The translations under genes were made by a program, and so were the position numbers. The notes beneath the pieces were generated by a model. It saw nothing but the letters and a program-made list of their open reading frames with translations. It searched no databases and was not told the origin of the DNA. A DNA stretch of 54,516 nucleotides from Bacillota bacterium (GTDB lineage: Bacteria > Bacillota > Limnochordia > Darwinibacteriales > Darwinibacteriaceae): NCBI GenBank assembly GCA_012838305.1, contig DUPN01000079.1, positions 1 through 54,516 on the forward strand, written 5' to 3'. Positions 2,287 to 54,446 of the stretch are shown here, piece after piece (within the stretch, counting starts at the first letter, position 1; each line of letters starts with the position of its first letter).

Positions 2287-4806
2287 CTACGCATCGCCTG
2301 AAGTGAGGGATTGGACGAGAGCAGCCAGGGTGCTGGCGGCATCTCCTGCCACAAAGGTGCAATTGGGGGCATCATACAAAGTGTTCTCTACACCGGCATA
2401 CCCCGGTGAACGATCCAGATTGTACACGAGGACATGGCGTGCCTGCTCCACACGTAAAATGGGCATCCCATAGATAGGCGTGTCGATATGCGTATTGGCA
2501 GCAGGGTTTATTACATCGTTGGCGCCCACAACAATGGCCACATCCACCTTCTCGAACTGATCATTGATCTGATCCATCTCCAACATCAACTCATAGGGTA
2601 CATCCACTTCGGCTAAGAGCACATTCATGTGTCCAGGCATGCGGCCAGCCACGGGGTGAACGGCAATCTCCACCCGCACACCTCTCTTTTGCAGGAGCTC
2701 CAAGAGCAGTTTCACTTGTCCTTGAGCCTGGGCTAAGGCCATGCCATAGCCGGGCACGATCACAACCCGCTTCGCCGCAGCCAGAAGCTCTGCTGGGTTT
2801 GCCTTGTGGACAGACTCCTCAACTGCCTGTTCCGAATCGCCCCAAGAGCCAGCAGCTGAAGGCGTTTCTCCCTTCACTGCTGCGATAATTTTCGCCAGAC
2901 TCTCCTTGGCATCTCCCAAGAGCATTTCCACCTTGTCCATGCCATAGAGGCTGTTATCGACTCCGGCGTAGCCCGGCTTCGTGTCATAGTTGCAGATCAG
3001 CACATGGGCGGCCCAATCTGCTCGAATAATGGGCATCCCGTAAATGGGAGTGCCCTCGAGCTCGATGGCTGCCGGATTGACAACATCATTGGCTCCTACA
3101 ATAATAGCCAAATCGGTAGTCTGCAAAAACTCATTGATCGCATCGAGTTCATAGAGCAAATCATAGGGTACATCCACTTCAGCTAGGAGCACATTCATGT
3201 GGCCGGGCATGCGTCCTGCCACGGGATGGATACCGTAACGCACCTCTTTGCCCTGGCTCTGCAGGAGCTCTCCAAGCTGCTTGACCTGACCTTGGGCTTG
3301 AGCTAAGGCCATTCCATAGCCAGGAATGATCACAACCTTTTTGGCCGAGTTTACCTTGGCTCTCATATCATCTTGAGCATGTGCCCCACTTGGTTTCGAA
3401 TCCTTCTCGCCCTTTAGCGCTTGGAGTACTTCGCCCAAGCTTTCCTTAGCGTCGCCCAGGAGAAGCTCCACTCGGTCCATTTCGTACAGACTGTTATCCA
3501 CGCCGGCATAGCCTGGTTTGGTATCATAGTTGCAGACCAGGATCCTCCTGGCGTAGTCGGCACGAATGATGGGCATTCCATAGATCGGAGTGCCCTCCAG
3601 TTCCATGGCTGCAGGATTGACCACATCGTTTGCCCCCACGATAATGGCTACATCTGTATCTTCCAGAAAGGCATTGATGTCATCGAGTTCGTAGAGCAAA
3701 TCATAGGGTACATCCACCTCAGCCAGGAGCACATTCATGTGTCCGGGCATGCGTCCTGCCACGGGATGAATACCGTAGCGAATTTCTTTACCCTGACTCT
3801 GCAGCAAATCTCCCAACTGTCTCACCTGCAGCTGGGCCTGGGCTAAAGCCATTCCGTATCCAGGAATGATCACAACTCGCTGCGCAGAGCGCAAAGCATC
3901 TCCCCAAGCCGGTACTGCCTCAGCCTTGTCCTGAGCAACTTCAGCCTCTGCAGGAGAAGTCTTGGTCTCACCTTCATGGTTTAGGCCCACCTTGGGCGTG
4001 ACAGTGGTTTTGCCAAGGAGAATATGCAGCAGACTCGTATTCATGGCTCTGCACATAATCTGGGTCAGGATCAAGCCCGACGACCCAACGATGGAACCCA
4101 CCACAATCAGAAGGGCACCATTGGGCAGGGCAAAACCTGCAATAGCACCGGCCACCCCCGAAAAGGAGTTCAGGAGCGAAATCGTAATAGGCATATCCGC
4201 TCCCCCCACTCGAATGGTAAAGACGTATCCCCAGTAGAGAGAAAGAACGGTGAGGATAACCGCATGAACCAGAGGAGAGCCTACACCAAATGTGAGTCCC
4301 AAGGCCGACAGTGCCATGATGCTTAGGGTGGAATACAGTTGGAGGTTGTGGAATGCCAAATGCATCGGGCGCTGGTTCATCCTGCCATGAAGCTTCGCCG
4401 CGGCCACCAGGCTGCCGCTTAAGGTCACTCCACCCACGATAACGGCCAACCCCGAGGTAAACCAGGTAAAGGGAGTGAGACCCCCGATGAAGATGGTCAT
4501 GAGGGCAACCAAAGCCGAAGCACCTCCACCAAAGCCGTTCAGCAAAGCCACCATCTGCGGCATTTGAATCATAAGCACTTTGGCCGCTAACCAGACACCC
4601 AGAGCGGAACCTACAATTATTCCCGCCAATATTACGGGCATGGTCACAATCTGCGCCTCGATCAGGGTCACGATAATGGCGCCAGCCATAGACCCGGCAC
4701 CAACCAAGTTGCCTCCCACTGCCGTTTCAGGCGAGTTCATAAGACGGATTCCGTAGATGAATCCAGCAATAAACAGCAACTGCAGAACCCATGATAAGGT
4801 CGACAT
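2287..4806 (-). CDS. pntB: NAD(P) transhydrogenase beta subunit with three tandem NADP(H)-binding domains
   Basis: The 839-residue protein is far longer than the usual PntB (about 460). Residues 1-265 form the membrane domain dII with several hydrophobic helices and the conserved GGADMP and LLNSFSG segments. Position 90 is Asn, as in the Thermus-type enzyme, where E. coli has His91. After a charged, Ala/Glu-rich linker there are three full copies of the NADP(H)-binding domain dIII: residues about 307-465, 487-645 and 677-837. Each has PGYGMALAQAQ, HPVAGRMPGHMNVLLAEVDVPY, VGANDVxNPAA, PIYGMPI and PGYAGVxN. The enzyme couples proton flow to hydride transfer between NADH and NADP+. No stop or frameshift lies between copies. 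The KRS triplet that holds the NADP 2'-phosphate in E. coli is replaced in all three. Its start directly abuts pntA2. Confidence 0.95.
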   Translation of the reverse strand: MSTLSWVLQLLFIAGFIYGIRLMNSPETAVGGNLVGAGSMAGAIIVTLIEAQIVTMPVILAGIIVGSALGVWLAAKVLMIQMPQMVALLNGFGGGASALVALMTIFIGGLTPFTWFTSGLAVIVGGVTLSGSLVAAAKLHGRMNQRPMHLAFHNLQLYSTLSIMALSALGLTFGVGSPLVHAVILTVLSLYWGYVFTIRVGGADMPITISLLNSFSGVAGAIAGFALPNGALLIVVGSIVGSSGLILTQIMCRAMNTSLLHILLGKTTVTPKVGLNHEGETKTSPAEAEVAQDKAEAVPAWGDALRSAQRVVIIPGYGMALAQAQLQVRQLGDLLQSQGKEIRYGIHPVAGRMPGHMNVLLAEVDVPYDLLYELDDINAFLEDTDVAIIVGANDVVNPAAMELEGTPIYGMPIIRADYARRILVCNYDTKPGYAGVDNSLYEMDRVELLLGDAKESLGEVLQALKGEKDSKPSGAHAQDDMRAKVNSAKKVVIIPGYGMALAQAQGQVKQLGELLQSQGKEVRYGIHPVAGRMPGHMNVLLAEVDVPYDLLYELDAINEFLQTTDLAIIVGANDVVNPAAIELEGTPIYGMPIIRADWAAHVLICNYDTKPGYAGVDNSLYGMDKVEMLLGDAKESLAKIIAAVKGETPSAAGSWGDSEQAVEESVHKANPAELLAAAKRVVIVPGYGMALAQAQGQVKLLLELLQKRGVRVEIAVHPVAGRMPGHMNVLLAEVDVPYELMLEMDQINDQFEKVDVAIVVGANDVINPAANTHIDTPIYGMPILRVEQARHVLVYNLDRSPGYAGVENTLYDAPNCTFVAGDAASTLAALVQSLTSGDA
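2296..2778 (-). repeat. dIII coding repeat, copy 3 (C-terminal)
   Basis: This segment codes for residues about 677-837 of PntB, the most diverged copy: VVIVPGYGMA, VEIAVHPVAG, NLDRSPGYAGVEN. It occupies the position of the single dIII in normal PntB proteins, so it may be the ancestral one. Confidence 0.85.
2872..3348 (-). repeat. dIII coding repeat, copy 2 (middle)
   Basis: This segment codes for residues about 487-645. Its protein is nearly identical to copy 1 over long stretches (VRYGIHPVAGRMPGHMNVLL, CNYDTKPGYAGVDNSLY), while the DNA differs at many third positions. This points to a duplication that is not brand new but is under strong constraint. Confidence 0.88.
3412..3888 (-). repeat. 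dIII coding repeat, copy 1 (membrane-proximal)
   Basis: This segment codes for residues about 307-465, directly after the linker that follows the membrane domain. The spacing of the GYGMA motif is 180 residues from copy 1 to copy 2 and 190 from copy 2 to copy 3. Confidence 0.88.
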
Positions 4807-5097
4807 CTACGATTTCCTCCTCCGCCCGCTTTTGAACATCCTCAACATGCGGTCCGTCACCAAAAACCCTCCCACAACGTTGATCATGGCCAGAACAATG
4901 GCGACAAAACCCACCAGTTGGCTGCCTGTGGCCAGCGCAAGGCCTGTAGTGGTCAACGCTCCGATAATGGTAATACCGGAAAGCGCGTTCATACCCGACA
5001 TCAGTGGGGTATGAATCAAACTAGGTACATCACTGATTAATTTGTACCCCAGTAGCGCTGCCCCCACAAAGACCAGGACTAAGACAAACTCTCTCAT
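4807..5097 (-). CDS. pntAB: NAD(P) transhydrogenase alpha subunit 2 (membrane part)
   Basis: The 96-residue protein consists of three hydrophobic helices and a basic tail (FKSGRRRKS). SLIHTPLMSGMNALSGI carries a His (residue 29) at the place of the proton-path histidine known in the split alpha2 subunit of the Thermus enzyme, which fits the Asn at the matching place in PntB. It supplies the membrane helices that in E. coli are fused to the C-terminus of PntA. Its ATG overlaps the pntA1 stop by one base (TAATG) and its stop abuts pntB, so the three subunits are translationally coupled. Confidence 0.94.
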   Translation of the reverse strand: MREFVLVLVFVGAALLGYKLISDVPSLIHTPLMSGMNALSGITIIGALTTTGLALATGSQLVGFVAIVLAMINVVGGFLVTDRMLRMFKSGRRRKS

Positions 5098-6278
5098 TAA
5101 ATTTCTCCCCTCAAACGCATGGACTCCAATGCGCCCTCATGCACAACATGACCATCCCTTGTCACTAGTGTTTCCTTGACGATAACGTCCTCTAGATTCA
5201 AGGTAATCTTCCCGGCCTCAACAATATTATCCACGAAATGCAGAACGTTCTTGGAGAACATGTCAGTCGAACTTGTTGGCATGGTACCAGGGATATTCTT
5301 GGTTCCGTCGACGATCACACCATAGTGTTCCTGAACAACACCGCCTTCACTCAAGGCACAGTTTCCTCCCTGATCAATCGAGATGTCCACGATCACGGAT
5401 CCTGGTTTCATAGATTTGACCATTTCCTCCGTGATCAAGATCGGGGCTTCTTTCCCAGGTACTAAGGCCGAGGTAATCAGGATGTCGGATAGGGCCACAG
5501 TAGCCTTGAGGGCCTCTCGTTCTTTCTCCAGCCATTCAGGGGTAAGGTGTTTGGCGTAACCCCCTTCACCAATGGCCAGGTCTTGGGGGATACCTAAATC
5601 CACGATGCGAGCTCCGAGACTCTGGGCCTGTTCACGTGCATCAGGGCGAATATCTGCGGCATAGACCACCGCGCCCATTCTCTTGGCTGTGGCAATCGCC
5701 TGCAATCCCGCTACCCCAGCTCCGATCACTAAGACCTGACCGGGCTGGATCATTCCCACAGCGGTACCCATCAAGGGCAAAAACTTGGGGATCCTATTGG
5801 CCGCCATCAGAAGACCTTTATAGCCGGCTACCGTACTCATGGAGGTCAGGGCATCCATGCTTTGAGCACGAGAAATCCTTGGAATGGAATCAAGGGTCAA
5901 AGAGACAACGCCCCTCTTAGCCAAATCTTGCACCATTTTATGGTTTCCTGGAGAAGCAGGATGCAAGAAAGTAATCAGCACCTGTCCCGAGCGCAGCAAA
6001 TCGGTCTCATGCAGATTGAGTCCTTCATGGAACTGCGGCTCCTTTACCTTCAAGATCAAATCTGCAGCAGCATAGACCTCTTTGACCTCGCATAGTGTGG
6101 CGCCTGCTTGTTGGTAAGCCTCATCGCTGAAAAACGCGCCTAGGCCAGCCCCAGCTTCCACCAAGACTCTGGCTCCACGTTTCACGAACTGACTCACAGT
6201 TTCAGGTGTTGCCGATACCCGCCGTTCGCCAGCGAGGATCTCTTTCGGCACCCCGATCGTCAAACCAGCATATTTCAT
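5097..6278 (-). CDS. pntAA: NAD(P) transhydrogenase alpha subunit 1 (NAD(H)-binding)
   Basis: The 393-residue soluble subunit (dI) binds NAD(H) and passes hydride to dIII. GVPKEILAGERRVSATPETV opens the alanine-dehydrogenase-like fold. PRISRAQSMDALTSM holds the Arg, Gln and Asp of the RQD loop, VLVIGAGVAGLQAI is the dinucleotide-binding turn, and ADIRPDAREQ gives the Asp that binds the NAD ribose. The acid residue and the RQD loop separate it from plain alanine dehydrogenase, as do the two following genes. GGAGG lies 7 bases before the ATG. It is first in the operon pntA1-pntA2-pntB. Confidence 0.96.
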   Translation of the reverse strand: MKYAGLTIGVPKEILAGERRVSATPETVSQFVKRGARVLVEAGAGLGAFFSDEAYQQAGATLCEVKEVYAAADLILKVKEPQFHEGLNLHETDLLRSGQVLITFLHPASPGNHKMVQDLAKRGVVSLTLDSIPRISRAQSMDALTSMSTVAGYKGLLMAANRIPKFLPLMGTAVGMIQPGQVLVIGAGVAGLQAIATAKRMGAVVYAADIRPDAREQAQSLGARIVDLGIPQDLAIGEGGYAKHLTPEWLEKEREALKATVALSDILITSALVPGKEAPILITEEMVKSMKPGSVIVDISIDQGGNCALSEGGVVQEHYGVIVDGTKNIPGTMPTSSTDMFSKNVLHFVDNIVEAGKITLNLEDVIVKETLVTRDGHVVHEGALESMRLRGEI

Positions 6279-6449: not shown

Positions 6450-7349
6450 CTAGACCAAGTGCTGGATCAATTCATCAGTTTGGCCGGGAAAATAATCAAG
6501 TAACGGAATCTCCAAAAGCGTGTAGGCACCGGGTTCTTGCTTAAGACTGGCCCTCGCCGCGGCCACCATCACCTGCGCTGTGAGCGCTGGATTGTTGATG
6601 CGCATTTCCCACTTGAATCGTTGATTTGCTGTCCGGCCCGATGTACCTGTGCGCTCCAACAAGACTCCATGACCCACATCCTGAATAGCTTCAATAGATC
6701 CAACCTGAAAAACATGGGTTTCATCGTTTTGGAAATAGGGATCGGCCTGAATAGCTTGCTTGATGGCGGCAAAGTCCGCTTGAGGTTTGAGTTTCACGTA
6801 CACCAAGCGGCGATGGACACCGGACCCCACGGGAATTGTCATCGACAGAGCATCTTCCACTCCCTGCAAGGCCTTCACAACCACCGTATGCCCCATACTC
6901 ATCCCTGGTCCGAAATTCGTGAAGCTAAGGCCCCGGGGAGCCATGATCTCCATCAGGGCCCGAACCACGGAATCGGTTCCTGGATCCCATCCGGCTGCGA
7001 TCACGCCGACGGTGCCATGCTGCTTGGTCTGTTCGCTCAATTGCCTGCGGTATTCGACCAAGGAATCACCATGAATATCATAACTGTCCACGGTATTGAT
7101 TCCTGCAGCGGCCATGGCACTGGCCATCGCCGGTACACTGCGCGTAGGGACGCAGAGAAGTGCAACATCAACTTGTTCTAAATCCGAAATCTTGCTCACC
7201 ACAGCAATGCCCGCGAGTTCAGACAGCCGCTGATCGTCACGGACTTGGCGGCGAACCACCCCGGCCAGCTCCAGATCGGAAGCTGCCAGAATGGCCTGTA
7301 CTGCGTATTTCCCAATATTCCCATAGCCTACAACCGCTACCTTGATCAT
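6450..7349 (-). CDS. ddh: meso-diaminopimelate D-dehydrogenase
   Basis: The enzyme reductively aminates tetrahydrodipicolinate with NADPH and ammonia to meso-diaminopimelate in one step, feeding lysine and peptidoglycan. IKVAVVGYGNIGKYAVQAI is the N-terminal Rossmann turn, CVPTRSV and DSYDIHGD lie in the substrate region, and GWDPGTDSVVRAL and GPGMSMGH are family signatures. The start is ATG 7349, giving 299 residues, the length I recall for the Symbiobacterium enzyme and shorter than the Corynebacterium one. GGGGGA lies 6 bases before it; an in-frame TTG at 7367 would precede that site. It is a single gene with its own terminator. Confidence 0.92.
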   Translation of the reverse strand: MIKVAVVGYGNIGKYAVQAILAASDLELAGVVRRQVRDDQRLSELAGIAVVSKISDLEQVDVALLCVPTRSVPAMASAMAAAGINTVDSYDIHGDSLVEYRRQLSEQTKQHGTVGVIAAGWDPGTDSVVRALMEIMAPRGLSFTNFGPGMSMGHTVVVKALQGVEDALSMTIPVGSGVHRRLVYVKLKPQADFAAIKQAIQADPYFQNDETHVFQVGSIEAIQDVGHGVLLERTGTSGRTANQRFKWEMRINNPALTAQVMVAAARASLKQEPGAYTLLEIPLLDYFPGQTDELIQHLV

Positions 7350-7369
7350 CAGCATTCCCCCGTTCAAAC

Positions 7370-26228: not shown

Positions 26229-27125
26229 CTAGATGGCCTTGAGAAACTGTTCGAAACGCAAAGCGAGACGATCCCGATCGGGCTGTTCAATTTGTTTTTT
26301 TGGCAAGGCCAGCTTGCTCCGGTGGATCCCCTGAATACCATGGCGCAGCATGGGTCCATCATGTTCCCTAAGCAAATCCTCTCGTACAATGATTCGATAC
26401 TCTGGCGTCACTCCGATGAAATGGCGGTCATAGGCGGCATGGTGAATCTTACAAAGGGAGAGGCCGTTGCTCACAACCGGTTCTCCCTGGGGATCACGAT
26501 CAGGCGTTATATGGGCTGCATCGAGAAGTTCCGCATGGCGCAGTTGACAAAAGGCGCATTGATGACCATAAGCCTGGAGCACCCTGGCCCGAAAGGTCTT
26601 TTGATGCAGACGAACCCTGAAGCTGGCGGTAACGTAGCGGCGGCGACACTCCTGTCCGTCTTCGCCTAGCAGCAGACCAGGCTGGGCATGCTCCACATCA
26701 TCCACGGCAATCGTGAAGGCCAGGTTGCGGCGGTCCTCCCCGATAACGAAAACGGGCCACGCAGCCAAGTACTTGCCTGGTAATAGACCATAGAAATATA
26801 CAAGGGGCACCCTCTCCATCCAGGCTTGCCGCAGCCCTGCGTTCTCAAAGTGGTTGGGATCGGTCCCCCGATACTTGTAGCGTAAGAGACCGTCTGCCGT
26901 TAATCCATCGTCGTAGTGCCCCTTTGATGACGTCCTAATGGACAGGGGAATGGACTTGAACGCCTTGGGCTTCCAGATGCCCTGTTGACCTACGAGAGCT
27001 ATTTTCTGACCCTCAAAGGTGAAGTTATTCTGTAGTACAGCCCACGGCAGAACATCATCATACAGCACAGACTGCTCCTGGAGCCAGCTAAAAACAGCTA
27101 AGCGAATCTGAACTTCCCGGGTCAC
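26229..27125 (-). CDS. HNH endonuclease-domain protein, possible restriction-type nuclease
   Basis: The C-terminal part of this 298-residue protein has a complete HNH core: CAFCQLRHAELLDAAHI, then NGLSLCKIHHAAYDRHF, with the paired Cys (C-x2-C) and the His and Asn of the beta-beta-alpha-metal fold. The N-terminal two thirds, with RYKYRGTDPNHFENAGLRQA and PLVYFYGLLPGKYLAAWPVFV, match COG3440-type predicted restriction endonucleases. No methyltransferase lies nearby, so it may be a modification-dependent or stand-alone nuclease. AAGGAGGAA stands 6 bases before the GTG start at 27125. A GC-rich palindrome at 26209-26220 after the stop could help termination. Confidence 0.82.
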   Translation of the reverse strand: MTREVQIRLAVFSWLQEQSVLYDDVLPWAVLQNNFTFEGQKIALVGQQGIWKPKAFKSIPLSIRTSSKGHYDDGLTADGLLRYKYRGTDPNHFENAGLRQAWMERVPLVYFYGLLPGKYLAAWPVFVIGEDRRNLAFTIAVDDVEHAQPGLLLGEDGQECRRRYVTASFRVRLHQKTFRARVLQAYGHQCAFCQLRHAELLDAAHITPDRDPQGEPVVSNGLSLCKIHHAAYDRHFIGVTPEYRIIVREDLLREHDGPMLRHGIQGIHRSKLALPKKQIEQPDRDRLALRFEQFLKAI

Positions 27126-27803: not shown

Positions 27804-29939
27804 TCAGACAATGTCAAATGAAATGGTGTTAAAGTCCCAATCAACTCGGCTCAAAGCATGCACGAAAGGTGAGAGATCCTGGCCGTTGGCGAACAAGGCC
27901 AAACGACGCATGGCCCGACTAGCGCCCACGAACAGAAGCTTACGCCTACATTCCTCAAATTCCCGAATTTCGCCTTGATCCGTCAAGTCTGCTTTTAGCC
28001 CAGGAAAGGAGTCTTTCTCCACATGGGCGATGACCACAGTGGGGAATTCCAGCCCCTTGGACGTATGCAAGGTCATCACCTTGACAACCTTCTCCTTCAG
28101 GTGCAACTCGTCCCCTTTGACGTGCTTGGCCCTCAATCCCAAGTTACTCAAGGCTGCCGCCACATCGCTGGCCTGCTTGTTAGAAAGGGTCAAAACGGTA
28201 CCCGTCCATACCGGCAAACGCAATCCGTGAGCCGAATTCTCCAGGAATTCTGCGATCTTCTCGTACTGTTCCTGGCAGCTCCGCGTTACAAATACCTGCG
28301 GTTTCGGTCCTTGATGAACAGAGGAAGTGACGAGTGTCTCAGCATCAAGCTCCGAGGCACCCAAAAACCCCCTGCAAGCGGCTGCGATCTGTTTTGTGCT
28401 GCGATAGTTATGGTGCAGGATGGTTGAACGGCCCCGAAAATCAAGAAACTCGTGGACCTTGCTCCAGGAAAAGCCTCGGTTGTAAATGCTTTGATTCGCA
28501 TCGGCCGTAAAGAAAAGACCACGGGGCGACTTACACAACTCGGCGCAAAGAGCAAGGCTGACCGGACTCAGGTCCTGGGCTTCGTCCACAATGACCACGT
28601 CATATTGGGCAATCTTCACCCTCTGCTCCTGCAGCGCGTCCAAGGCCAGTCCCCGGTAATACTCCCAGGAGCGTCCCTTCTCGGCGCTAAGGCGGAGAGT
28701 TTCTTGATACACTTCCCACACCAAGGTGCGCAGCGCTTGCCCAAAGGGCACTATTCTGCCAATCCGTTCGGTCTGGAGGTACTGCTCCAGACTTCGAATG
28801 CGCCGGCCTTCCACCACCCACTCAATCTCTTCTACGAGATAATTCGCCCGCAAATCCGCCAGGGTAAACCAGGCCGTGGAGGCCTTTTCCTCGTGCGCCG
28901 TCAAGACATTATCCTTGGCTTCCTGCACATACGAAGCCAGATCATGCAGGGGTGTAAAATCGGTCTCGGTGCTAAGAACAATCTGCCGAACCAAGGGGTC
29001 AAGGTTGGTCACAACAACCTGATCGAGGCGGTCGGGGATTAACTCACTCAAGAGCTGTTTTGAGGCATTCATCAAGGATTTTCCATAGGTTAGGAAGAGG
29101 ATGCGGGGCAAGGGTTCAAAAAGCTTATACTGTTTGGGATCCAAAAGATTCTTGACCCGATACAAGGCAACCAGGGATTTGCCTGTACCCGGTCCCCCCT
29201 TCACGAGGGCGGGACCCTGCAAAGAACGGGCAGCCACCCTCTCCTGCTCAGGTGAAAGCTTGAGTAGAAACCGGGTGAGAGTACCATCTCTGAATCGTTC
29301 CAGATCCGTGACATTTTCTAGACTAAAGTCCGGCTGTTCATCCAACTGCTGCAGTGTGGGAGGGTTGTACCAATGCTGTACAACCTTGATCGTCTCTTCG
29401 GGAAGGTCAAGTTCGAGAATTTCCTGAAGGCTGCTGCACCGCAAAATTAATCGGCGTTGATCGTGGGGAATCCTCCAGTGATCCAAGAGCTCGGCAAAGG
29501 GTCCGTCCTGGGCCCTGTGCTGGTCGTCGATTTCGGGCCGATCCTCGGGCGCCCAACTCTCTTCAGTACCACTGGGATACCAGCTCCGATGCTGATCAAA
29601 AGGGGTCGTTTGCAGGACCTTGGGGCGCGCTGCTTTGGCTTCCTGGGCGGTCATCAAAACCTCGCTATCCCCCAGATAGCGGCGGTAGATATCACCCCGT
29701 CTTCCAACTGCGAGTAAGCTGATCACGCGGTTTCCCACTGCATAGATCAGGCGGTAATCCCCCAGCCGAACCCGGTAGACATTTTCGTATTGCTGCTTGA
29801 ACACTCGTTTTACATTGGGAGCCCGGAAGGGATCCTGTTCCAGGCGACCTATACACCTAGTTATACCATTTTGGGTGCTCTGGGGTACAGCCATAAAATC
29901 CTTCAAAAACGCGTCTTTCACCACGACTTCAAACGACAC
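27804..29939 (-). CDS. UvrD/Rep-like helicase fused to an N-terminal RelE/ParE-like domain
   Basis: Residues 1-90 of this 711-residue protein look like a RelE/ParE toxin fold: VVVKDAFLKDF, then YRVRLGDYRLIYAVGNRVIS and AVGRRGDIYRRY, including the Arg and Tyr positions used by RelE-type RNases. After a linker the superfamily 1 helicase follows: Walker A GGPGTGKS (248-255), the motif-II segment IVDEAQDLSPV, HHNYRSTKQIAAAC and VMTLHTSKGLEFPTVVIAHV. It is shorter than UvrD or Rep. The start is GTG 29939, with GGAGGG upstream; the longer frame to 29981 would overlap the next gene. No antitoxin-like small gene is adjacent. Confidence 0.85.
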   Translation of the reverse strand: MSFEVVVKDAFLKDFMAVPQSTQNGITRCIGRLEQDPFRAPNVKRVFKQQYENVYRVRLGDYRLIYAVGNRVISLLAVGRRGDIYRRYLGDSEVLMTAQEAKAARPKVLQTTPFDQHRSWYPSGTEESWAPEDRPEIDDQHRAQDGPFAELLDHWRIPHDQRRLILRCSSLQEILELDLPEETIKVVQHWYNPPTLQQLDEQPDFSLENVTDLERFRDGTLTRFLLKLSPEQERVAARSLQGPALVKGGPGTGKSLVALYRVKNLLDPKQYKLFEPLPRILFLTYGKSLMNASKQLLSELIPDRLDQVVVTNLDPLVRQIVLSTETDFTPLHDLASYVQEAKDNVLTAHEEKASTAWFTLADLRANYLVEEIEWVVEGRRIRSLEQYLQTERIGRIVPFGQALRTLVWEVYQETLRLSAEKGRSWEYYRGLALDALQEQRVKIAQYDVVIVDEAQDLSPVSLALCAELCKSPRGLFFTADANQSIYNRGFSWSKVHEFLDFRGRSTILHHNYRSTKQIAAACRGFLGASELDAETLVTSSVHQGPKPQVFVTRSCQEQYEKIAEFLENSAHGLRLPVWTGTVLTLSNKQASDVAAALSNLGLRAKHVKGDELHLKEKVVKVMTLHTSKGLEFPTVVIAHVEKDSFPGLKADLTDQGEIREFEECRRKLLFVGASRAMRRLALFANGQDLSPFVHALSRVDWDFNTISFDIV

Positions 29940-29974
29940 TCTGCTCCCTCCCTGATCCTTTGGACATGCTGCCT

Positions 29975-31054
29975 CTACCAAACAAGTCCTCTGGCATCCA
30001 CATCCAAATACTCCAGACTGCCATCGAGCTTTTCTAAATAATATCCATTGCTAAGATTCACCACTGTGCACACATGAACAGGGATAATCTCAATCCGCTG
30101 GCCGAGGACAAAGGCATCCTCTTTGGCCTCAATGATGCCGTGTTCCTCATTCACCCTGACCACTCGAGCCCCGGGCATACATGGAATAAACCCGTGTCCC
30201 AAGCCCAGCAGGCTTCCTTCTGAGAGCACTTTGCTGCCAGCGTCGACAATAAATCGACCGGGAGCAGGATTGCTCACCACAGTTGCCAGCACTCTTAAGG
30301 CCACATGGTCCTGGTCAATCACGAATTTCATCTCACTGAAATCATTGAAGACATAGGTTCCTGGACGCCATTCGGTGACTCCGGTCACGAGGGTTTTTCC
30401 GTGACAGGCCGGTGTCGAACCACTGCTCACCGTGGAGATGGCGAAACCTCCTTGGCGGAGACTCCCTGCAGCCCATAACAGCCTTTCAGCCGCGATCTTG
30501 GCCGAAGCAAGCATGGACTCGAGATCAGTGCATTGATGCAGATGGCCTTCATGGGTCATCACTCCAATCAATCGGATATTCGGGAGTTGATGGACTGCTT
30601 TGGCCAAGGCCAACGCCTCTTCAGGCCGAACACCATCACGATTGCCACCAGTGTTAATGATCATCACGAGGTCAAATTCTGTCTTCTCCCGAGCACCCCA
30701 CTCACTCCATCGCTGGGCGGCCTGTGCACTGTCAAAGGCCACTTTTAAGCGGCACCGCTTGTTAAGTTCGCTTGCCCTGGTTAACTGGTAATCGCCAAAG
30801 AGCGGATAGGCAATGAAAATGTCCTCAATTCCTCCAGTAGCCATCACCTCGGCCTCACTCACCGTAGCGCAGGTGACACCGACGGCACCTGCTTCCATCT
30901 GCATTTTGGCGATGCGGATATTCTTGTGGGTCTTAATGTGAGGACGAAGGTCAACTCCTGCTGTCGTAGCCCAAGAGGCCATCTGCTGGATATTACTCCT
31001 TAGGATCTCTAGATTAACCACCAAACTGGGGGTGGGAATCTGACGTTTATGCAC
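29975..31054 (-). CDS. D-threonine aldolase / D-serine dehydratase-like PLP enzyme
   Basis: The 359-residue protein has an alanine-racemase-type barrel with the PLP lysine in LRPHIKTHKNIRIA, followed by GAVGVTCATVSEAE and IEDIFIAYP. The C-terminal beta domain has VNEEHGII and PVHVC, whose His and Cys bind the divalent metal in D-threonine aldolase and D-serine dehydratase. The reaction is thus likely D-3-hydroxy-amino-acid cleavage or dehydration. Start GTG 31054 has AAGGAGG 7 bases upstream, and the product then begins HKRQIPTPSLVV, as is normal in the family. It is 35 bases before the helicase gene and probably co-transcribed. Confidence 0.88.
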   Translation of the reverse strand: MHKRQIPTPSLVVNLEILRSNIQQMASWATTAGVDLRPHIKTHKNIRIAKMQMEAGAVGVTCATVSEAEVMATGGIEDIFIAYPLFGDYQLTRASELNKRCRLKVAFDSAQAAQRWSEWGAREKTEFDLVMIINTGGNRDGVRPEEALALAKAVHQLPNIRLIGVMTHEGHLHQCTDLESMLASAKIAAERLLWAAGSLRQGGFAISTVSSGSTPACHGKTLVTGVTEWRPGTYVFNDFSEMKFVIDQDHVALRVLATVVSNPAPGRFIVDAGSKVLSEGSLLGLGHGFIPCMPGARVVRVNEEHGIIEAKEDAFVLGQRIEIIPVHVCTVVNLSNGYYLEKLDGSLEYLDVDARGLVW

Positions 31055-53894: not shown

Positions 53895-54446
53895 CTACTC
53901 CATCAGCCTAGCTCTCTGAAGTGCAAGGACAATGATGGGAATGATCACAACCTGGAGAGCTATACCTGGCAGCGCATCCCAGACTGCGCCCGCTGCAAAC
54001 ATCTGCCAGCTAAAGGCCTGGCCAGACAGACCATAGACCAAGACACTCGCCACTCCCCAGACAACTCTCCCACCAAGCATTGCTGCTAGAAGGGACAGAA
54101 GGATAGAGCTCGGCGTCCGTGACCAGAAGCGGTAAAACACTCCCGCCAAAAAGCCATAGGCCCCTAACTCAAAGGACATGACAAAGGCGGTGGGAAACAC
54201 CGGAGGGGTTCCAAACATAAAACCGCGCAACAAGGGAGTTACAATACCAATGATCAATCCGTAAGGACCTCCAAGTACAAATCCGCTGAGCAGTACTGGG
54301 ATGTGCATCGGTAAGAGACGACGGCCCACACTGGGGATCTGCCCCGTCAAGAAAGGCATCAGCAGCCCGAGCGCCACCAACAGTCCAGCTAACACAAGGT
54401 GTTTTGTCGATTGTCTTGTCGATTGTTTTGTCGTTGATTTCTTCAC
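53895..54446 (-). CDS. ECF transporter S component
   Basis: The 183-residue protein has about six hydrophobic helices. LVLAGLLVALGLLMPFLTGQ, RRLLPMHIPVLLSGFVLGG, YGLIIGIVTPLLRGFMFG and PPVFPTAFVMSFELGAYGFL are typical of the ECF-family vitamin-binding S subunits. These bind a vitamin or metabolite and use a shared energising module, which is not in the window. The cofactor is not clear; the sequence pattern fits the PanT/RibU-like group loosely. The first 16 residues are a repeated basic Lys-Gln-Ser-Thr segment. Start GTG 54446 has GGAGGAAGACA upstream. Only 70 bases of its leader are visible. Confidence 0.88.
   Translation of the reverse strand: MKKSTTKQSTRQSTKHLVLAGLLVALGLLMPFLTGQIPSVGRRLLPMHIPVLLSGFVLGGPYGLIIGIVTPLLRGFMFGTPPVFPTAFVMSFELGAYGFLAGVFYRFWSRTPSSILLSLLAAMLGGRVVWGVASVLVYGLSGQAFSWQMFAAGAVWDALPGIALQVVIIPIIVLALQRARLME
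54399..54434 (-). repeat. Three 12-bp tandem repeats at the start of the ECF gene
   Basis: The unit reads roughly WCGACAARACAM on the minus strand, three times in frame, and codes for TTKQ, STRQ and STKH. Copy number could vary by slippage. Confidence 0.7.

Follow-up and report, generated by a model that had tools for sequence, protein, structure and literature searches.

The three-domain architecture of membrane transhydrogenase has been reviewed as universally conserved (PMC5742237). In the known enzyme a mobile dIII domain moves between the NAD(H)-binding domain dI and the membrane domain dII, and in the dimer one dIII is up while the other is down (PMC5742237). In E. coli, loops D and E and the KRS motif have been tied to NADP(H) binding and specificity (PMC9529548). 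Two solved enzymes and one soluble dehydrogenase are the obvious points of comparison for the locus that we describe here. The PntA1-A2-B enzyme of Thermus thermophilus (PDB 4O9U) has the same three-gene layout and homologous dI, dII and dIII domains, but it has one dIII, keeps the motif as KRG, carries a channel histidine in alpha 2 where our locus has Ser, and has a dI without alanine dehydrogenase residues. E. coli PntAB (PDB 9l76) has homologous membrane and nucleotide domains and shares the invariant dIII positions with our locus. It differs in having two subunits, one dIII, an intact K424-R425-S426 and His91 in TM9, which is Asn in our case. L-alanine dehydrogenase, finally, is homologous to dI, and its Arg15, Lys75, Met133, Ser134, His96, Asp270 and Asn300 have equivalents in the PntA1 proteins of the clade described below. 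It is, however, soluble and free-standing and lacks the RQD loop, dII and dIII.

The locus lies in a stretch of 54,516 nt (contig DUPN01000079.1, assembly GCA_012838305.1), which we call the window and to which all coordinates refer. The window is contig 24 of a draft genome of 121 contigs. As in the known enzymes, dI, dII and dIII are encoded together and dIII follows dII in one chain, but it does so three times instead of once. Most likely, pntA1-pntA2-pntB encodes a membrane transhydrogenase of three subunits that belongs to a divergent clade, with dIII domains arrayed in tandem on its PntB. The features are as follows.

2287..4806, minus strand: pntB, dII plus three dIII, 839 aa (PF02233: a full match plus two further dIII matches, all in a single open frame)
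4015..4806, minus strand: dII membrane domain, residues 1-264 (the model matches T. thermophilus dII as solved, with a TM-score of about 0.9 normalised to target length)
3889..4014, minus strand: linker between dII and dIII, residues 265-306, Ala/Glu-rich (pLDDT below 50 at 269-297)
3409..3888, minus strand: dIII copy 1, residues 307-466 (motifs, tree, AlphaFold2 model)
3523..3531, minus strand: N-Y-D replacing K-R-S in copy 1, residues 426-428 (alignment)
3349..3408, minus strand: linker between copies 1 and 2, residues 467-486 (composition, AlphaFold2 model)
2869..3348, minus strand: dIII copy 2, residues 487-646 (motifs, tree, AlphaFold2 model)
2983..2991, minus strand: N-Y-D replacing K-R-S in copy 2, residues 606-608 (alignment)
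2779..2868, minus strand: linker between copies 2 and 3, residues 647-676, Ala/Glu-rich (pLDDT below 50 at 651-667)
2293..2778, minus strand: dIII copy 3, C-terminal type, residues 677-838 (in one clade with the final copy of relatives that have two dIII, support 100/99)
2413..2421, minus strand: N-L-D replacing K-R-S in copy 3, residues 796-798 (alignment)
4807..5097, minus strand: pntA2, the remaining dII transmembrane helices, 96 aa (PF12769; closest solved relative T. thermophilus alpha 2)
5097..6278, minus strand: pntA1, NAD(H)-binding dI, 393 aa, with R20, K79, H106 and D302 of alanine dehydrogenase type (PF05222, PF01262)
6450..7367, minus strand: diaminopimelate dehydrogenase gene, directly before pntA1 (TIGR01921, 309 bits against a cut-off of 180.6)

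Elsewhere in the window, a 725-aa frame (27804-29981, minus strand) has, by eye, the look of a RelE/ParE-type N-terminus fused to a UvrD-like helicase; beside it lies a frame that looks, also by eye, like an HNH-type endonuclease (26229-27125, minus strand). A short tandem repeat with a unit of 12 bases stands at the window's end (54400-54433).

The initial annotation had proposed three full dIII domains in one uninterrupted frame, and this is what we find. The 839 codons of pntB contain no internal stop, and Pfam PNTB matches the product once in full and twice over dIII only (E about 1e-77 for each extra match). All four motifs listed at the outset are present in every copy: GYGMA (residues 316, 496 and 686), GRMPGHMN (351, 531 and 721), GANDV (391, 571 and 761) and GYAGV (432, 612 and 802). 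Y315, H345, R350, E361, D383, D392 and N395 (E. coli numbering), which are invariant across dIII, are likewise kept in all three. The PntB score against its NCBIfam equivalog profile (716 bits, cut-off 689) is summed over three matched stretches, which probably inflates it, and we therefore do not take it as functional proof.

Copies 1 and 2 share 84% of their amino acids, 76% of their nucleotides and 51% of their third codon positions. Hence the third-codon divergence noted initially is real, while calling the two proteins nearly identical slightly overstated the case. Copy 3 is 59% identical in protein to copy 1 and 60% to copy 2; DNA identity among the three ranges from 61% to 76%, and the repeat units lie 540 and 570 nt apart, in register. 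Comparison of the window with orthologues from its genus bears out the early suggestion that the copies are under selection (dN 0.06–0.10 per copy, dS at least 1.2 or saturated). In the AlphaFold2 model each dIII is a Rossmann fold, mostly predicted with confidence, and by structure comparison the pntB model matches solved dII and dIII domains. The linkers had been described as Ala/Glu-rich and flexible. All three have low model confidence; the composition is right for the dII-dIII linker and the last one, but the middle linker is made of Lys, Asp, Ser and Ala.

Our searches also show that the window is not alone. Two to four dIII copies per PntB occur in anaerobes of at least three phyla: Bacillota, Desulfobacterota and Spirochaetota. 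Other genera of the window's family and order have two copies. Among 398 sampled genomes of the window's phylum, a PntB above the cut-off is present in 49, of which at least 20 (a manual count from the match table) have two or more dIII per frame; two of the genomes that consist of a single contig carry two (G280) and four copies (G287). The phylum sample around a Desulfovibrio MAG yielded three proteins with four copies and one with two. For spirochaetes, two copies were found in 5 of 65 genomes with a match, and the three cases that we inspected lie on genome-sized contigs of 2.8–2.9 Mb. In the open literature searched, which leaves subscription journals mostly outside coverage, we found no description of tandem or duplicated dIII in PntB.

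Some loci look broken or unusual. On contig 1 of G119 (about 468900-471000), pieces of pntA and pntB with several stops appear to be a decayed operon. In L202 (G144) a two-dIII PntB is followed by a stop codon and then a 157-aa frame with a third dIII piece. L188 (G718, 238 aa) and L190 (G611, 203 aa) have a dIII match without dII and may be stand-alone or broken dIII genes.

When the window's copies were aligned and placed in a tree of 167 dIII copies, the tree split with full support into a KRS group and a group that we call N-x-D. In the latter, Lys424 is replaced by Asn and Ser426 by Asp in 125/125 copies, most other conserved dIII positions being kept; in the former, Lys is present in 42/42 copies and Ser or Gly in 42/42. 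All three copies of the window are of the N-x-D kind (N-Y-D, N-Y-D and N-L-D). Confinement of tandem dIII to the N-x-D clade is nearly, though not strictly, complete: a KRS-type PntB of 668 aa (L186, genome G623) has two dIII, the only tandem case seen outside the clade, and hence the tandem form can arise elsewhere too. Single-dIII members also exist within the N-x-D clade, which shows that the array can be dispensed with. Loss of the channel histidine did not work as a mark of the clade. The window has Asn at beta 91, Asn at beta 222 and Ser at position 42 of alpha 2, but most of the KRS-type relatives retrieved also lack the histidine, which makes it doubtful as a defining feature. A first dI tree hinted that the N-x-D group is an ancestral grade that gave rise to canonical PntA. 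Since the likelihood improved when the group was constrained to stay together (p-AU 0.74), we make no such claim.

Relatives from the window's family that have two dIII place their last copy with copy 3 (100/99) and their first with copies 1 and 2 (100/93); copies 1 and 2 separate from each other within the genus. This position-wise grouping implies that the double goes back at least to the family and the triple to the genus. Elsewhere the copies mostly cluster protein by protein, which means either independent expansion or gene conversion, and within many proteins they are near-identical. On a tree that leaves dIII out, parsimony requires at least 10 changes between single and multiple dIII, and well-supported branches force at least 7 changes for the multi-dIII members of the N-x-D clade. 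From these sequence trees we infer that tandem dIII has been gained or lost repeatedly.

What could an array of dIII domains do? We tentatively favour, at somewhat less than even confidence, a tethered array in which a single dI and a single dII serve all the dIII carriers of a chain. Flexible linkers join each folded dIII to the one dII. While one copy, docked face-up on dI, transfers hydride, another would sit on dII and exchange its nucleotide in an ion-coupled step; any spare copies would wait on the tether. Hydride transfer and ion-coupled exchange could then proceed simultaneously on different copies, replacing the one-arm alternation of the textbook enzyme. The tandem lipoyl domains of pyruvate dehydrogenase E2 offer an analogy, as they too are carrier domains of variable number that visit active sites on flexible linkers (PMC8421416), but theirs is an unrelated fold with a covalently bound cofactor in a soluble complex. 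Several observations speak for a carrier array: the intact frame and folds, purifying selection on each copy, conservation of the triple in the genus and of the double in family and order, the invariant dIII residues kept in every window copy, position-specific clades, recurrence in three phyla and the mobile dIII of the known enzyme (PMC5742237). Against it stand the loss of KRS in every copy and the near-identical copies elsewhere, which could be passive duplications. We also predicted from the carrier array that multi-dIII proteins require longer tethers, and this prediction failed: within the N-x-D clade, the dII-dIII tether of multi-dIII members is not supported as longer than that of single-dIII members (p 0.32). 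The tether of the KRS-type protein with two dIII (L186) measures 63, above the range of 45–53 in single-dIII KRS proteins.

One could also argue that the array is the product of near-neutral unequal recombination in a repeat-prone gene. Extra copies would then be tolerated and add little function, and their ability to fold would be maintained because any domain that misfolds would poison the enzyme. Copy number does change frequently, many proteins contain near-identical copies, and close relatives manage with one dIII, all of which such a process would produce. It is harder to reconcile with the window's family, where distinct, position-specific copies are kept through genus and family, with the strong purifying selection on each copy, and with the recurrence of similar expansions in separate phyla. 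We regard this explanation as rather unlikely.

A further explanation is suggested by the motif. The initial annotation had labelled all three domains as NADP(H)-binding. This label is not secured, because the KRS motif linked to NADP(H) is replaced in every copy. An acidic residue at such a place in a Rossmann fold is typical of NAD sites. Moreover, in the window's family the C-terminal copies differ from the N-terminal ones at 425, 427, 428, 448 and 452: the equivalent of R425 changes from Y/F to L, 427 from T to R and 428 from K to S/A. These differences indicate that the copies are probably not equivalent, and the C-terminal copy has probably become specialised, having diverged from the N-terminal ones. 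Since it differs in and next to the KRS-equivalent motif, the initial idea that the copies might serve different nucleotides keeps some support. Some copies might bind NADP(H) and others NAD(H) or another nucleotide without a 2'-phosphate, with hydride exchanged between unlike carriers. The fixed K424 to N and S426 to D changes, the divergence of the C-terminal type and the part that loops D and E and KRS play in E. coli specificity (PMC9529548) would fit. However, in most copies the Asp of N-x-D is followed, at the first or second position, by a Lys or Arg that might restore phosphate binding, and N-x-D is common to all copies and cannot by itself tell them apart.

The gene next door also bears on this question. 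A diaminopimelate dehydrogenase-like gene occupies the same place before pntA1 in six relatives of the window's family, judged there from similar size or N-terminal sequence and in the window by its profile match. At the loci inspected outside the family, no such gene was seen beside the operon. The diaminopimelate dehydrogenase family uses NADPH. Its position beside the operon counts against unlike nucleotides and favours a role in NADPH supply, at least in the window's family; this neighbourhood suggests that the transhydrogenase supplies NADPH there. We also considered that the host needs the enzyme for want of an oxidative pentose phosphate route, but the host genome has G6PDH, which weakens this idea. 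Overall, we find it unlikely that the copies bind different nucleotides.

The partner subunit allows a more radical reading. PntA1 keeps the NAD-binding Asp and the RQD loop (D209, R137, Q139 and D142; the Asp and the Gln each in 52/52 clade members). At the same time, its R20, K79, H106 and D302 correspond to Arg15, Lys75, His96 and Asp270 of alanine dehydrogenase. The Arg15 equivalent is common to clade and KRS partners alike, but the equivalents of Lys75, His96 and Asp270 are fixed in 52/52 clade PntA1 and not conserved in 84 canonical (KRS) partners. Nine columns are common to alanine dehydrogenase and clade PntA1 and not to canonical PntA, whereas no column has the reverse pattern. Suppose, then, that the complex were a membrane-linked dehydrogenase, in which dI uses a site of alanine dehydrogenase type on an amino acid or oxo acid and passes the hydride to the dIII array. 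Residues of this type are essential in alanine dehydrogenase (PMC10401832; PMC4691113), and a profile search of the host genome found no alanine dehydrogenase over the family cut-off. Yet these residues make NAD contacts too (PMC4691113) and may simply be ancestral, PntA1 keeps the RQD loop together with other dI features, and its score against TIGR00518 (204.4 bits) is far under the alanine dehydrogenase cut-off of 391.85. We consider such a dehydrogenase very improbable. The broader proposal, which we likewise consider very improbable, is that the anaerobe clade is not a classical NADH/NADP+ transhydrogenase at all. Its alanine-dehydrogenase-like dI would oxidise or reduce a small substrate and swap hydride with a swinging dIII array, whose nucleotide would be other than NADP(H) alone or altogether, and the reaction would be ion-coupled. 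The clade would then possibly be a living link between alanine dehydrogenase and transhydrogenase.

An assembly artefact, the fault that the initial annotation had itself raised, would mean that a duplicated stretch was wrongly joined in a 121-contig draft, and it can be ruled out because the DNA of the copies is only 61–76% identical, the whole triple recurs in four other genomes of the genus at 78–80% protein identity (with pieces in three more, where contig ends cut it), sister genera have doubles, single-contig genomes elsewhere have two or four copies, and several drafts have runs of N within their dIII arrays, so that assemblers are more likely to lose arrays than to invent them. Such runs occur in L198, L199, L200 and L151, where copy numbers are under-counted.

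Judged by homology, the tandem-dIII transhydrogenase is a variant of the known enzyme that occurs in several phyla; its function beyond that is what we infer. Current models explain coupling by the two dIII of a dimer alternating between dI and dII, and natural chains with two to four dIII break this textbook count. The lost NADP motif and the retained alanine dehydrogenase residues raise the question of what the enzymes of the clade carry. The clade appears to include cultured anaerobes, and its enzymes offer a handle on how many dIII must move and on whether face-up and face-down must alternate.
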